A DNA stretch of 64,000 bases from Methylomarinum sp. Ch1-1 (GTDB lineage: Bacteria; Pseudomonadota; Gammaproteobacteria; Methylococcales; Methylomonadaceae). The translations under genes were made by a program, and so were the position numbers. The DNA is taken from NCBI RefSeq assembly GCF_030717995.2, contig NZ_CP157743.1, positions 1,674,001 through 1,738,000 of the forward strand. The letters run 5' to 3'. Numbering within the stretch: position 1 is the first letter of the stretch; the number at the start of each line of letters is the position of its first letter. The notes beneath the pieces are model-generated. The model was not told where the DNA came from. It was given only the letters and a program-made list of their open reading frames with translations, and ran no database searches. Shown here piece after piece: positions 11,154-64,000 of this stretch.

Positions 11154-11315
11154 CAGCATCAGTTTGAGTATTTTTGCGGGGTTTAGGGCATGGGGTGTGT
11201 CTGTCGAGGAGCGCCGTAAACCCATCCCTGGGGGCTTGACGGCAGCATCCTTGCTGCCGACATCCTCGCCAAACACACCCCATGCCCTTTTTGAACTCCA
11301 AAGTGGGAATTGCTG
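11154..11315 (+). repeat. Class 2 MITE, short form without the inner palindrome, 9-bp target duplication
   Basis: The ends are CAGCATCAGTTTG on the left and TGGGAATTGCTG on the right, inside a direct repeat CTAGATTGA (11145-11153) / CTAGATTGG (11316-11324), 8 of 9 matching. The interior reads TGTCTGTCGAGGAGCGCCG joined directly to TAAACCCATCC, whereas the copies at 31947 and 62221 carry a class 3 palindrome at exactly this junction. It occupies most of the 336-bp gap before the FMN-binding protein gene. Confidence 0.85.
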
Positions 11316-16623: not shown

Positions 16624-16788
16624 GTAACTATTCAGCTTGATACCGAGAAAATATTTCTTTTACTATCAATTGCTTGCGGAAGAAGTGTATGCGACAGGGA
16701 TGTCGCATCCAAGCCTATAGGGATATATTCACGGCGTCTTCTGTAGCAAGTAACTGATAGTAAAAACATTTTTATACTGAATAGTTAC
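16624..16788 (+). repeat. Class 1 (IS66-like) MITE with perfect 8-bp target duplication
   Basis: The 165-bp element begins GTAACTATTCAG and ends CTGAATAGTTAC, perfect 12-bp inverted ends, and is bounded by AAAGATAT on both sides (16616-16623 and 16789-16796). Much of the interior is an imperfect palindrome (TTTTACTATCAATTGCTTGC against an inverted partner on the right). The ends match the first 12 bases of the IS66 copy at 45349 at 11 and 10 positions, and 8 bp is the usual IS66 duplication length. It has no coding capacity. Confidence 0.88.
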
Positions 16789-31946: not shown

Positions 31947-32182
31947 CAGCAATTCCCACTTTGGCGTTCAAAAAGGGCATGGGGTGTGTTTGGCGAGGAT
32001 GTCGGCAGCAAGGATGCTGCCGTCAAGCCCCCATGGATGGGTTTACCCAGCACCTAAATTCCATGGCTACTGGACTATATTTTACATACCAGGATAATTT
32101 AGGTGCTGGGTGAACGGCGCTCCTCGACAGACACACCCCATGCCCTAAACCTCGCAAAAATACTCAAATATGGGAATTGCTG
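31947..32182 (-). repeat. Class 2 MITE with inner palindrome and perfect 9-bp target duplication
   Basis: The 236-bp element starts CAGCAATTCCCA and ends TGGGAATTGCTG, perfect 12-bp inverted ends. It is flanked by GTATTTGTT at 31938-31946 and 32183-32191. The unoccupied form of this site, with a single GTATTTGTT, is present in inverted orientation at 56751-56759. It lies in the opposite orientation to the copy at 62221. Bases 32042-32114 are the class 3 palindrome. Confidence 0.92.
32042..32114. repeat. Class 3 palindromic module inside the class 2 MITE
   Basis: TTTACCCAGCACCTAAAT and ATTTAGGTGCTGGGTGAA form the arms around a 37-base loop almost identical (in reverse complement) to the loop at 62306-62342. 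Confidence 0.8.
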
Positions 32183-45348: not shown

Positions 45349-47021
45349 GTAATTATTCAGACACCCTAACAATTGGCAAGGCCGGTACCGGCAAGCCTGA
45401 CCGCTGACTTGCGATCACTTGTGCCAAATAAATCCACGGTGACTGATTTCTTTTGCGGCAGGTTTCAATGACGCTGATTAAAATAGCGAACACACGCGTC
45501 CCATTTTCCGAGCGCGTGCCATAGCAAATGCCGCGTAAAATAACCCAGTGGCGCAACGCTCGCTCCGCTTCATTATTCGTTAAGGGCTGATGCGGTTGAT
45601 CCAGAACTTGAAAAATAGCTGCCCAGTCATTTAGCATTTCCGTGGCTAATGCTGCTGTTTTCTTATGTTCATGGGTTTTCATTTGTATACACATCTGCTG
45701 ATAGAGCAGTAATTGCAGGCGATAAGTTTCAGAAAGTGGCGTATCAGGTGGTGTTATTCGCGCTTTGCGTACCGCACCTATCAACACAGCCAGTAAATCG
45801 TGCGTTTGTTGACCAAAAAGCTGGGCGTCTCTGTTTAAGCTTTCATTGAGCCCTTTCGCTTTACGCAGAAGATGAGCCCAGCAACGTAACCGACTCAGAT
45901 ATTTGCGATAAACCGTGTAGCCATCGCTCATTAACCAACCATTAAAGTCGTCGCCTAAAAGATTTTCCAATAATTCAGCGCTACGCGTAGCAATCCAATA
46001 GGCTGTGACGCGATTCGTACTGAACACCCATAACCAAAGAAAAGTCGTGTGCTCCATCCAGGAGGTTTCGTCTACATGCAGCAATTCGCTGTTAATGATT
46101 TCTTGTGCAAACTCATCTTCAAGCGGCATAGCCGCTGCGCCACTTTCATGCAGGGTATTATTGATGGTGCCAACACTTAATTTAATACCTAACCAGTCAT
46201 ATAAAAATTCCTGAATACGCTCACGCGATAGGCGCATACGGTAGGCAAGACAAACAATCATTGCTGCCAGTCCAGGCCCCACTAAACGCCATTCAGTTCG
46301 GCTAATACCCGGCAATTGAGCATGACTGCTACGACTGACTTCTTTGCGCGTGATATGTCCATTGGCGCACACTACTTCATAGAGAGTGTGCTTGGTATGG
46401 GTGACTAGAATGCCTGGATACTCAACATCGCCCCATTCGACATTGATTGTTTCATACGCGGCATAGGCGATAGCATGACGCGGCTCTAATGTTTGATGGC
46501 AGCAGGCACATATTTCAGGGTAATGATCTTGATAGTGGGTAATGGCTAGCTTTTGTGTTCGGCCAAAGCCTTGTGCGCCTGGTTGTTTGCCGGGTTTGCG
46601 GGGTTCTTGATGTTCATTGTTAGGATCAGCGGACTGTTGCTGATCTTTTTTAGAAGGCGACGGGGGGGGGACGGTGTCTTCCGTTTCAGCAGACTTATCG
46701 ATCTCCGTTTGTTCTTGATCGTTTGTATTATCTGTAGCTGCTTTATCCCAAGGCGCTTCGCTGCTAGGTGGACGAGAGCTGTTGCGCGAATTTTGGCTTA
46801 AGCGCTCACGCGCTTCTTTTAGGTCGTTAAGTAACTTAATCGATAGGTAACGTAATTCCTCTTCCGGTAAATTGAGAAGCTCGTCTTCATCGATTTGGCT
46901 TAGGTCCTGGTTACTGAGTTGCATGGGATAAATACTAAGGCTTCTTAATGGATTTGTACAATGTTCTTGTGTCGGTTTGTCAATTATTTTGTATTTTCAG
47001 CTAGGGTGTGTGAATACTTAC
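45349..47021 (-). mobile_element. Complete IS66-family insertion sequence, single-ORF type, 8-bp target duplication
   Basis: The 1673-bp element has 20-bp inverted ends with 18 matches: GTAATTATTCAGACACCC on the left and, inverted, GTAAGTATTCACACACCC on the right. It is flanked by perfect CCCGAGAT duplications (45341-45348 and 47022-47029). GTAA ends and 8-bp duplications are typical of IS66. Only the transposase is encoded; the small tnpA and tnpB genes of classical IS66 are absent, as in the ISBst12-like group. The intact state suggests recent arrival. Confidence 0.93.
45353..46924 (-). CDS. IS66-family transposase
   Basis: The 523-residue DDE transposase has an N-terminal leucine-rich helix and a SQNSRNSSRPPSS linker. 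A zinc-binding motif (ICACCHQTL) follows, then the catalytic Asp in LLHVDETSW, the Asp in WLMSDGYTVY and the Glu in NNEAERALRHW. It ends with the C-terminal IS66 domain (ICYGTRSENGTRVFAILISVIETC). All three acids are present, so the enzyme looks active. The stop codon lies inside the terminal inverted repeat. A Pro/Gln-rich, charged stretch near residues 60-110 is typical of the family. Confidence 0.95.
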   Translation of the reverse strand: MQLSNQDLSQIDEDELLNLPEEELRYLSIKLLNDLKEARERLSQNSRNSSRPPSSEAPWDKAATDNTNDQEQTEIDKSAETEDTVPPPSPSKKDQQQSADPNNEHQEPRKPGKQPGAQGFGRTQKLAITHYQDHYPEICACCHQTLEPRHAIAYAAYETINVEWGDVEYPGILVTHTKHTLYEVVCANGHITRKEVSRSSHAQLPGISRTEWRLVGPGLAAMIVCLAYRMRLSRERIQEFLYDWLGIKLSVGTINNTLHESGAAAMPLEDEFAQEIINSELLHVDETSWMEHTTFLWLWVFSTNRVTAYWIATRSAELLENLLGDDFNGWLMSDGYTVYRKYLSRLRCWAHLLRKAKGLNESLNRDAQLFGQQTHDLLAVLIGAVRKARITPPDTPLSETYRLQLLLYQQMCIQMKTHEHKKTAALATEMLNDWAAIFQVLDQPHQPLTNNEAERALRHWVILRGICYGTRSENGTRVFAILISVIETCRKRNQSPWIYLAQVIASQRSGLPVPALPIVRVSE

Positions 47022-61448: not shown

Positions 61449-62075
61449 TTAGGCCGAGAGGGCCGAGGCTTCTTTTGCTCGACGGGTGATTTCCGTCCAG
61501 TCTTCGGCATCGACCAGATCGGCCGGCGCCATCCAAGAGCCGCCGACACAGGCGACGTTTTTCAATGCCAGGTATTCGGCGGCATTTTTCGGACTGACGC
61601 CGCCGGTTGGGCAGAAGGTCACTTGCGGCAACGGGCCGCCGATCGATTTCAACATCGGTATGCCGCCTGCCGCTTCGGCCGGGAAGAATTTCATTTCGGA
61701 GATGCCTTTTTCCAGCAAACGCATCACTTCGCTGGGGCTGATGACGCCCGGTAGAATCGGTACGCCGGATTTCAGCGCGGCATCGATCAGGTTGTCGGTG
61801 ACCCCTGGACTGACCAGAAATTCTGAGCCGGCATCGACGGCTTGTTTCAGCGTCTCCTGGTTGATCACGGTGCCGGCGCCGACGATCGCATCCGGCACCT
61901 CGGCTTTGATTCGCTTGATCGCTTCCAGAGCCACCGGAGTGCGCAGGGTGATTTCCAGCACTTTCAGGCCGCCTTCGACCAGGGCGTGAGCCAAGGGAAC
62001 CGCATGCTCGAGCCGGTTGATGACCATCACCGGGATGACCGGGGAGGTGTGCATGATGTCTTTGATCGCTGTCAT
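61449..62075 (-). CDS. eda: 2-keto-3-deoxy-6-phosphogluconate aldolase
   Basis: The 208-residue class I aldolase cleaves KDPG to pyruvate and glyceraldehyde 3-phosphate. Motifs are VLEITLRTP (catalytic Glu), FLVSPGVTDNL and the Schiff-base Lys in EMKFFPAEAAGG. The start ATG at 62075 has a poor ribosome site, and the region upstream is nested mobile-element DNA, so its translation or promoter may have been altered. In most relatives eda lies directly behind edd; here 488 bp separate them. Confidence 0.95.
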   Translation of the reverse strand: MTAIKDIMHTSPVIPVMVINRLEHAVPLAHALVEGGLKVLEITLRTPVALEAIKRIKAEVPDAIVGAGTVINQETLKQAVDAGSEFLVSPGVTDNLIDAALKSGVPILPGVISPSEVMRLLEKGISEMKFFPAEAAGGIPMLKSIGGPLPQVTFCPTGGVSPKNAAEYLALKNVACVGGSWMAPADLVDAEDWTEITRRAKEASALSA

Positions 62076-62220
62076 AATTTTTATGTGATTAAGATGATTC
62101 GTAGGTTGTAACTATTCAGGGTCTTGCAGTCTTTAGGGAGCAGGTCATTGATTTCTCGGGACGCGTGAATACATCCGTGTAAGCTCTGACTGTAACCTCC
62201 TGTTGCAGACAGCCCGATAA

Positions 62221-62455
62221 CAGCAATTCCCAGTTTGAACGTTTTAGCGGTGTTTAGGGTATGGGGAGTGTCTGTCGAGGAGCGCCGTTCACCCAGCACC
62301 TAAATTATCCTGGAATGTAAATTATAGTCCAGTAACCATGGAATTTAGGTGCTGGGTAAACCCATCCCTGGGGGCTTGACGGCAGCATCCTTGCTGCCGA
62401 CATCCTCGCCAAACACATCCCATGCCCTTTTTGAACGCCAAAGTGGGAATTGCTG
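62221..62455 (+). repeat. Class 2 MITE inside the class 1 MITE, perfect 9-bp target duplication
   Basis: The 235-bp element begins CAGCAATTCCCA and ends TGGGAATTGCTG and is bounded by GCCCGATAA on both sides (62212-62220 and 62456-62464). Confidence 0.92.
62288..62360. repeat. Class 3 palindrome inside the class 2 MITE
   Basis: TTCACCCAGCACCTAAAT and ATTTAGGTGCTGGGTAAA form the arms. The copy at 11154 lacks this segment at the exact same junction (GCCG / TAAACCC). Confidence 0.82.
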
Positions 62456-62523
62456 GCCCGATAAATCAATAACCTACTCCCTCTGAAAAAAAACTATACT
62501 GAATAGTTACCCGTAGGTTTTAG

Positions 62524-62555
62524 TTGTAGGTCGGGTTAGCGAAGCGTAACCCGAC
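62524..62555 (+). repeat. REP-like palindrome (GTAGGTCGGGTTAGCG type)
   Basis: GTAGGTCGGGTTAGCGAAGC followed by GTAACCCGACAG is a head-plus-hairpin unit just behind the edd stop codon. It could act as a transcript end or be a REP copy. Confidence 0.6.
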
Positions 62556-62563
62556 AGCTTCTT

Positions 62564-64000
62564 TTAATCCACCGGAAACAGATTCGATGCGCCGGTTTCG
62601 GCGGTCGAGGCGCCTAAGCGGAAATTGCCGAACATCTCGCGTCCCATGCCGTAATGGTGATTGTTGGCGCGATTCGGAATCGGCGTGCGGGCATTGAATT
62701 CCGCCTCAGCGACCTTCGCGGTGATCTCGCCGGTTTGCAAATTCAGCGAAATGATGTCGCCGTCTAATACCTTGGCCAGCGGCCCGCCCATTTCGCATTC
62801 GGGGCATAAATGAATCACCGAAGGCACTTTGCCGGAGGCGCCGGACATACGACCGTCGGTGACCAGCGCCACTTTGAAGCCCTTGTCTTGCAATACGCCT
62901 AAAGGCGGCGTCAGCTTATGCAGCTCCGGCATGCCATTGGCCCTAGGGCCTTGGAAGCGAATCACCGCGACAAAGTCTTTTTCCAGTTCGCCACGTTTGA
63001 ACGCGGCCAGAAAATCTTCCTGGTCATCGAATACCACCGCCGGCGCTTCGACAATTCGGTGATCGGCCGAGACCGCGGAGAGCTTGGAGACGCCGCGTCC
63101 CAGATTGCCTTGCATCACATGCAGGCCGCCGGTGGCGGCGAAGGGTTTTTCCACCGTGCTCAGGACCTCGGTGTCCATCGAGCTTGTCGGGCAGGGTTCC
63201 CAAACCAATTTGCCGTCTTTTAATTTCGGTTCCTGGGTATAGCTGTTCATGCCTTTTTCATCGGCGACGGTCAGTATGTCTTCATGCAATAGACCGTGTT
63301 TCAGCAGTTCGGCGATCAACACGCCCATGCCGCCGGCGGCATGGAAATGGTTGACGTCGGCCGGACCGTTCGGATAGATTTTGCTCAGCTGTGGAATGGC
63401 CTTGGACAGATTGTCGAAATCGTCCCAATTCAATGTGATGCCGGAAGCTCGGGCGATGGCGATCAGGTGCATGGTATGGTTGGTCGAACCGCCGGTCGCC
63501 AGCAGACCGATGACGGCGTTGATAATCGCTTTCTCGTCGACCATGCGGGCGATAGGGCGGTAATCATCGCCCAAGGCAGTGAATTTCAGCACTTGCCGCG
63601 CCGCTTGCTTGGTCAATTCGTCGCGCAACGGCGTATAAGGGTTGACGAAGGAACTGCCGGGCAGATGCAGACCCATGATTTCCATCATCATCTGGTTGCT
63701 GTTGGCGGTGCCGTAGAAGGTGCAGGTGCCGGGAGAATGGTAGGACGCCGATTCCGCTTCCAGCAACTCTTTGCGACCGATCTTACCGACGGCATAGGCC
63801 TGTCGGGCGCGGGCTTTTTCCTTGTTGGTCAGGCCGCTGGGCATCGGACCGGCAGGGACGAAGACGGCCGGCAAGTGGCCGAAGCTGAGGGCGCCGATCA
63901 ATAGGCCCGGTACGATCTTGTCGCAGACGCCCAGATACAAGGCGGCGTCGAACATGTTGTGGCTCATGCCGATCGCCGTCGCCATCGCGATAAGATCGCG
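62564..64000 (-). CDS. edd: Phosphogluconate dehydratase (5' end outside window)
   Basis: It dehydrates 6-phosphogluconate to KDPG, the first committed Entner-Doudoroff step. The 479 residues in view begin in frame before the ATG at 63985 (RDLIAM), so the N-terminus continues beyond the window. IlvD/Edd features are visible: [15 protein letters not shown] with a cluster Cys, [19 protein letters not shown] with another, [14 protein letters not shown], and the C-terminal [21 protein letters not shown]. It shares direction with eda, 488 bp downstream, with three nested repeats between them. The repeats may cut eda expression or provide a new signal. Confidence 0.95.

Follow-up and report, generated by a model that had tools for sequence, protein, structure and literature searches.

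MITEs with parent ISs are known, and REP and REPIN sequences are short, abundant palindromes that go together with RAYT (Y1) transposases. Among other short intergenic repeats, the Correia/NEMIS elements of Neisseria are described in the accessible part of one source as having short and long forms, of 107 and 155 bp, which differ by a single internal segment, a 50-bp internal sequence of one element group (PMC2229807). The same partial text presents ERIC and YPAL as hairpin-forming repeats of intergenic DNA, which can be co-transcribed with adjacent genes (PMC2229807).

In the stretch of Methylomarinum sp. Ch1-1 analysed here (64 kb, hereafter the window), three distinct repeat classes lie nested between the genes edd and eda: an outer MITE (class 1), an inner MITE (class 2) and, inside the latter, a palindrome termed P (class 3). 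Class 1 resembles IS66-mobilised MITEs in having the ends of resident IS66 elements, 8-bp duplications, a length of about 159 bp and many near-identical copies. Class 2 is comparable to MITEs of ISs with DDE (PF01609) transposases, as it has the 12-bp end CAGCAATTCCCA and the 9-bp duplication of a resident 1.4-kb IS. Class 2 also occurs in short and long forms, of about 166 and 235 bp, and so parallels Correia/NEMIS as reported in the portion of that source consulted; in contrast to that group, the segment that makes the difference here is a palindrome present in at least three MITE families and in three other genomes. P is like REP and REPIN in being a short, abundant palindrome, but it is not tied to Y1 transposases, it sits inside MITEs, and it has 4-bp direct repeats in a genome of another genus, G015. 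Compared by description, again from part of the source, ERIC and YPAL are likewise intergenic hairpin-forming repeats and differ in ends and duplications.

A search of the open-licence literature found no description of these MITEs, of nested methanotroph MITEs or of a palindrome targeting MITE cores, and the available part of PMC10969869 mentions neither nesting nor IS66. P is apparently an undescribed palindrome that may target MITE cores, and the locus is a clear but ordinary case of bacterial mini-transposons piling up.

The edd-eda gap

The genes on either side of the insert, and a further repeat beside it, are as follows.

61449-62075, minus strand: eda (KDPG/KHG aldolase, 208 aa; PF01081 257.8 bits; TIGR01182 277.3, cut-off 156)
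62564-63985, minus strand: 3' part of edd (phosphogluconate dehydratase), the gene extending past the window edge (TIGR01196 799.7 bits, cut-off 708, profile 133-600 of 601)
62526-62555, unstranded: separate short hairpin repeat, GTAGGTCGGGTTAGCG...CCCGAC, bordering the insert but outside it (read from the sequence)

The gap between edd and eda measures 488 bp, the size given in a preliminary description of this DNA, which had regarded the gene pair as normally tight and had proposed to compare its spacing in close relatives. Such a comparison finds the gap enlarged here. In the closest relative, G001 (Edd 93%, Eda 91%), it is 76 bp long and has no insert, and subtracting the insert, one duplication and one extra C from the present gap also leaves 76 bp. 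The notion of tight spacing is correct in that the gap is often short, as in G001, but not as a general rule, since it ranges from 26 to 385 bp in the 21 relatives with both genes at the locus; these lengths end at the start of the aligned part of Eda, and some are overstated by a few dozen bases. The edd match is absent at one of 23 relative loci. Among the closest named records (best Eda identities 89% in Methylobacter marinus A45 and 86% in Methylobacter luteus, as would fit a gammaproteobacterial methanotroph), the 12 gaps measured, with locus L064 left out, are 29-294 bp long, again with the end point that overstates some of them.

Some of the longer gaps hold repeat-like sequence of other kinds, for example those at L166 (385 bp) and L065 (294 bp), so the spacer tolerates insertions in other lineages. 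The 385-bp gap of L166, in genome G012, has within it CTGAATAATTAC, whose 12 bases are identical to an IS66-type end, and may represent an IS66-type insertion into the edd-eda gap in a separate lineage. Sequence similar to the hairpin at 62526-62555 is present in the edd-eda gaps of G001 and of the Methylomonas records L067 and L072. An Rfam search over the window returned three tRNAs and nothing else.

The outer element

62108-62510, unstranded: outer element, IS66-type MITE (12-bp inverted ends; 29 uninterrupted copies; ends common to resident IS66)
62100-62107, unstranded: target duplication to the left of the outer element, 8 bp, CGTAGGTT (direct repeat)
62512-62519, unstranded: target duplication to the right of the outer element, 8 bp, CGTAGGTT (8/8 match)
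45349-47021, minus strand: IS66 element of 1673 bp, bordered by CCCGAGAT as its 8-bp duplication and of the type that is likely to mobilise the outer element (NF033517 193.7 bits, cut-off 180)

The outer element is bounded by GTAACTATTCAG (62108-62119) and CTGAATAGTTAC (62499-62510), an inverted match of 12/12, and is 159 bp long once the inner element and its second 9-bp repeat are removed. Both the ends and the duplication had been recognised before; what the preliminary description lacked is an additional C at 62511, which separates the right end from its repeat and displaces the right duplication by one base. The class 1 end occurs seven times in the window against 0.09 expected, and no dinucleotide shuffle reached seven.

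The genome (4.77 Mb, three contigs) was searched with a 159-bp query of the joined flanks (best 40 of 236 candidates scored). Thirty class 1 loci were fetched, one being this locus, and in all of the other 29 GCCCGATAA, the 9-bp repeat of the inner element, is present and aligned straight through. An 8-bp duplication at 7/8 or better borders 27 of these 29 copies (L200 and L212 fail), and the nearest three siblings have 96-98% identity. Most siblings have GTAATTATTCAG, which is also an IS66 end, as their right end, and the copy here has GTAACTATTCAG, an 11/12 match.

The outer MITE thus exists in many copies and is without a transposase gene, the insert being overlapped by only two mechanical ORFs (72 and 54 aa). 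IS66 transposases account for 24 matches in this genome. GTAACTATTCAG is found at no more than one mismatch in 11 of 12 fetched IS66 loci, and all six loci checked for both ends, among them the copy at 45349-47021 in the window, are 1670-1673 bp long with a perfect 8-bp duplication. Judged by its ends and duplication length, the outer element is an IS66-type MITE, probably mobilised in trans by resident IS66.

The inner element and its candidate mobiliser

62221-62455, unstranded: inner element, a P-containing class 2 MITE of 235 bp (ends; copies; resident 1.4-kb IS with the same 12-bp ends)
62212-62220, unstranded: target duplication to the left of the inner element, 9 bp, GCCCGATAA (present once and unbroken in the sibling copies of class 1)
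62456-62464, unstranded: target duplication to the right of the inner element, 9 bp, GCCCGATAA (9/9 match)
62292-62356, unstranded: P, a 65-bp palindrome, CCCAGCACC...GGTGCTGGG, with TTCA (62288-62291) on its left and TAAA (62357-62360) on its right
11154-11315, unstranded: P-free class 2 copy with duplication CTAGATTGA/CTAGATTGG (8/9)
31947-32182, unstranded: P-bearing class 2 copy with duplication GTATTTGTT (9/9 read directly)

The inner element runs from CAGCAATTCCCA (62221-62232) to TGGGAATTGCTG (62444-62455), and the ends and perfect 9/9 duplication attributed to it earlier are present. So are the arms of the class 3 palindrome, at 62288-62305 and 62343-62360, with zero and one mismatch to TTCACCCAGCACCTAAAT. 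As single-stranded DNA the hairpin of P is predicted at -18.3 kcal/mol (z -7.2). In the window the class 2 end occurs seven times against 0.41 expected and the P arm nine times against 0.04, counts that no dinucleotide shuffle reached. Genome searches were made with the P-bearing form of about 235 bp (best 40 of 480 candidates scored) and with the P-free form of about 166 bp (best 40 of 302 scored). With a scan that let each end slide up to 4 bp, a 9-bp duplication at 8/9 or better was found at 24 of 30 P-bearing class 2 loci, this one included, and at 9 of 12 P-free ones.

A 1.4-kb IS with CAGCAATTCCCAATTT ends, which has its 12-bp end in common with class 2, is found at seven places in this genome. 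Six of them are 1408-1410 bp long and the seventh is interrupted by another IS. The adjacent 9-bp duplication is perfect at four of the seven, and at the other three the eight visible letters match if one extra left-end base is allowed. An uninterrupted copy (L357) has an ORF of 433 aa, whose product matches PF01609 in its C-terminal part just above the cut-off (25.8 bits against 23). The NCBIfam models for IS4 and IS1380 lie far under their cut-offs (19.4 against 152 and 18 against 180), and the IS is therefore placed in no family. More distant relatives, also with 9-bp duplications, occur here (L373, L375) and in G015 (L362, L368). This resident IS with its 433-aa DDE transposase is the likely mobiliser of class 2, acting in trans. 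The genome search for each class that had been proposed earlier yielded many copies of each, together with matching resident IS ends for classes 1 and 2.

One locus, L340, was considered as an IS within a class 2 MITE and rejected, as there is no class 2 interior there. It is a copy of the 1.4-kb IS (L340:832-3095, contig C2 of this genome, G000) with a perfect 9-bp duplication TCATAAGAC, interrupted by an IS of about 0.86 kb, of which five or more near-identical copies exist.

Order of events at the locus

It is highly probable that the edd-eda gap grew from about 76 to 488 bp when two non-autonomous mini-transposons inserted one after the other, the second already carrying P, with resident IS66 and the resident 1.4-kb IS as the likely mobilisers. 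A 159-bp MITE with IS66-type ends, mobilised in trans by the former, would have entered the gap and duplicated CGTAGGTT; a MITE of a different family, 235 bp long and mobilised in trans by the latter, would then have entered the outer MITE and duplicated GCCCGATAA. P would have been aboard by that time, following an earlier entry into the core of an ancestral class 2 copy. That class 2 was inserted in class 1, as the preliminary description held, is shown by the 29 uninterrupted class 1 copies. Because these siblings are without class 2 at this point, and because there is no second composite among the best 40 candidates, outer before inner is the simplest order. The same description had counted three nested elements. 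There are indeed three distinct classes, nested and with readable boundaries, but P very probably represents no third insertion at this place and came inside class 2.

How the layers came together can be read in other ways, each of which fits the evidence less well. The outer and inner elements might have been joined elsewhere and have moved into the gap as one unit, for which the intact outer ends would in principle suffice, and class 2 also lies beside or inside class 1 at other loci (L305, L313 and, on one side, L002). Those nested cases have different junctions, however, and no second composite with the junction seen here was found among the best 40 of 480 candidates, the 420-bp query matching end to end only at this locus; a move as one unit is accordingly very unlikely. 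Slightly more improbable still are three independent insertions with P as the last. In their favour are the existence of class 2 copies that have no P and the behaviour of P in G015, where it resembles an inserted element, but in the P-bearing class 2 copies that were fetched P occupies one and the same internal position, between the same flanks, so that a late arrival would have to repeat that position exactly. For this reason P was rejected as a third insertion and very probably arrived inside class 2. The argument draws on the identical position and on the existence of P-free copies; the P-bearing copies were ranked by likeness to a P-bearing query, which makes the fraction that carries P uninformative. 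Finally, the one-base displacement of the right outer duplication might be expected if the boundaries were chance repeats in ordinary spacer DNA. That idea has next to no probability against the dozens of copies with duplications and the relatives without an insert, and the dinucleotide-shuffle controls on all three repeat classes rule it out. Two successive insertions, with P carried in by the second, are thus the preferred reading.

Other nests in this genome

Nesting recurs and is common in this genome. Among 42 class 2 loci, class 1 sequence flanks class 2 on both sides at L305, at L313 and at the present locus, and on one side at L002; at L314, P-bearing class 2 sequence lies on both sides. 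The insertion points within class 1 are only a few bases apart, at 105-113 here and at about 109-116 in L313, which suggests a preferred insertion spot.

Other arrangements were observed as well. At L216 (G000:C2:3502070-3502227) the nesting is reversed, and a class 1 MITE lies in P within class 2, with an 8/8 duplication. At L382:60-1560 (G000:C2) there are three layers, an IS630-type element sitting in the loop of a P that is itself in a class 1-type MITE; both ORF pieces of this element match NF033545, under its cut-off.

Palindrome P and the cores of MITEs

This genome has 380 copies of the exact arm of P, ACCCAGCACCTAAAT (196 + 184), and none of the reversed control. The arm was found in 4 of 61 genomes, namely this one, G001 (6), G015 (26) and G021 (13). 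Among 369 genomes drawn class-wide, two had it (this one and G015), and four others had the reversed control once each.

The surroundings of P were studied in the first 82 listed forward matches, of which 80 were readable; 73 had a partner arm and 7 of the 80 had none within reach. Nearly all paired copies (69 of 73) adjoin core sequence from one or more of three MITE families. P lies between both halves of one core in 46 of the 73, 26 being A/B (class 2), 11 E/F and 9 C/D (class 1-like). A further 6 lie between halves of different families, although the D and F modules are alike and four D/E cases may be E/F variants; 17 lie beside one half and 4 beside none. The orientation of P hardly varies: where both halves were recognised (67 copies), a marker in the loop of P was on the same side in 52, on the other side in 3 and unclear in 12. 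Loop types cross MITE families, the other type being present in 4 of the 26 A/B copies.

The third of these families is also represented in the window.

16624-16788, unstranded: P-free 165-bp MITE of the third family (E/F), with the same 12-bp IS66-type ends and duplication AAAGATAT (8/8 read directly)

Between 15700 and 17000, class 1-type ends, a degenerate P and the intact 165-bp E/F MITE cluster round a small gene, upstream of another coding region.

Since half of the copies in G015 have 4-bp direct repeats, P may once have inserted as an element. In that genome an exact direct repeat (TTCA, TGAA or TTTA) borders 8 of 16 paired copies and an exact inverted one borders none; five distinct P-free core sites have a single TGAA or TAAA, these sites being paralogous and not orthologous. 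In the present genome, direct repeats are found in 3 of 94 P pairs and exact inverted ones (TTCA with TGAA) in 27, and 41 further pairs combine TTCA with TAAA or are the reverse complement of this, in a set that includes loci picked by class 2 similarity. A further copy (L387) has TGAA on both sides and a right arm one base short. Direct 4-bp repeats border 1 of 10 copies in G021 and 0 of 4 in G001. This distribution could be explained by a single type of insertion with a 4-bp duplication, whose left repeat would later have become TTCA in this genus and so extended the hairpin.

A broader proposal is offered tentatively, with the balance lying slightly against it. P would be a small palindromic mobile element that targets, in one orientation, a core (about GACGCCG, then TRAAT) common to several otherwise different MITE families, and that is amplified by whichever MITE is active; its left 4-bp repeat would mostly have changed as above, extending the palindrome, and MITE families would have exchanged P types with one another. 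Extension by about 3.5 kb from each of seven unpaired arms in this genome and one in G001 revealed no autonomous partner. L382 was examined as an autonomous P element and dismissed: a distant exact arm exists, but the DNA between the arms is the IS630-type element inside P. P was also rejected as a RAYT-driven REP, as none of 15 loci with Y1 transposase matches has a P arm nearby at two or fewer mismatches, and a single arm at three mismatches is seen in 2 of the 15.

Possible effect on eda

The preliminary description had suggested that eda expression may now depend on the inserted DNA. As RNA, the 488-nt spacer is predicted to form one nested hairpin of -202.1 kcal/mol (z -11.0), and none of 100 shuffles was as stable. 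Together with a second, weak and AU-rich hairpin (-2.8 kcal/mol, equalled by 9 of 200 shuffles), which precedes a run of eight U where the insert ends towards edd, and with the reported effect of ERIC elements on messenger stability in the accessible part of that source (PMC2229807), this would be compatible with co-option of the insert, the long hairpin altering edd-eda expression through messenger stability, polarity or termination. However, the strong folding arises because nested inverted ends must fold in this way, with or without any function, and scans of 61900-62700 gave promoter-like and terminator-like matches at chance level (1 against 0.7 expected and 1 against 0.9 expected, respectively). 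Co-option is consequently considered unlikely. Most likely the genes would be transcribed through the long spacer, which folds on itself, and eda would be little affected.

Concluding remarks

The locus is an unusually complete case of nested bacterial MITEs, with uninterrupted copies, duplications and the likely mobilisers of both moving layers in one genome. This makes it possible to reconstruct and test the order in which the events took place. Unless transcripts reveal an effect on eda, the gene context would carry little weight. Should P be a mobile element as proposed, MITEs would themselves be the niche that a smaller palindromic element targets, and this would help to explain why MITE families have long and short forms. 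The main value of the locus lies in being a well-resolved example and in palindrome P, which is the part worth following up.
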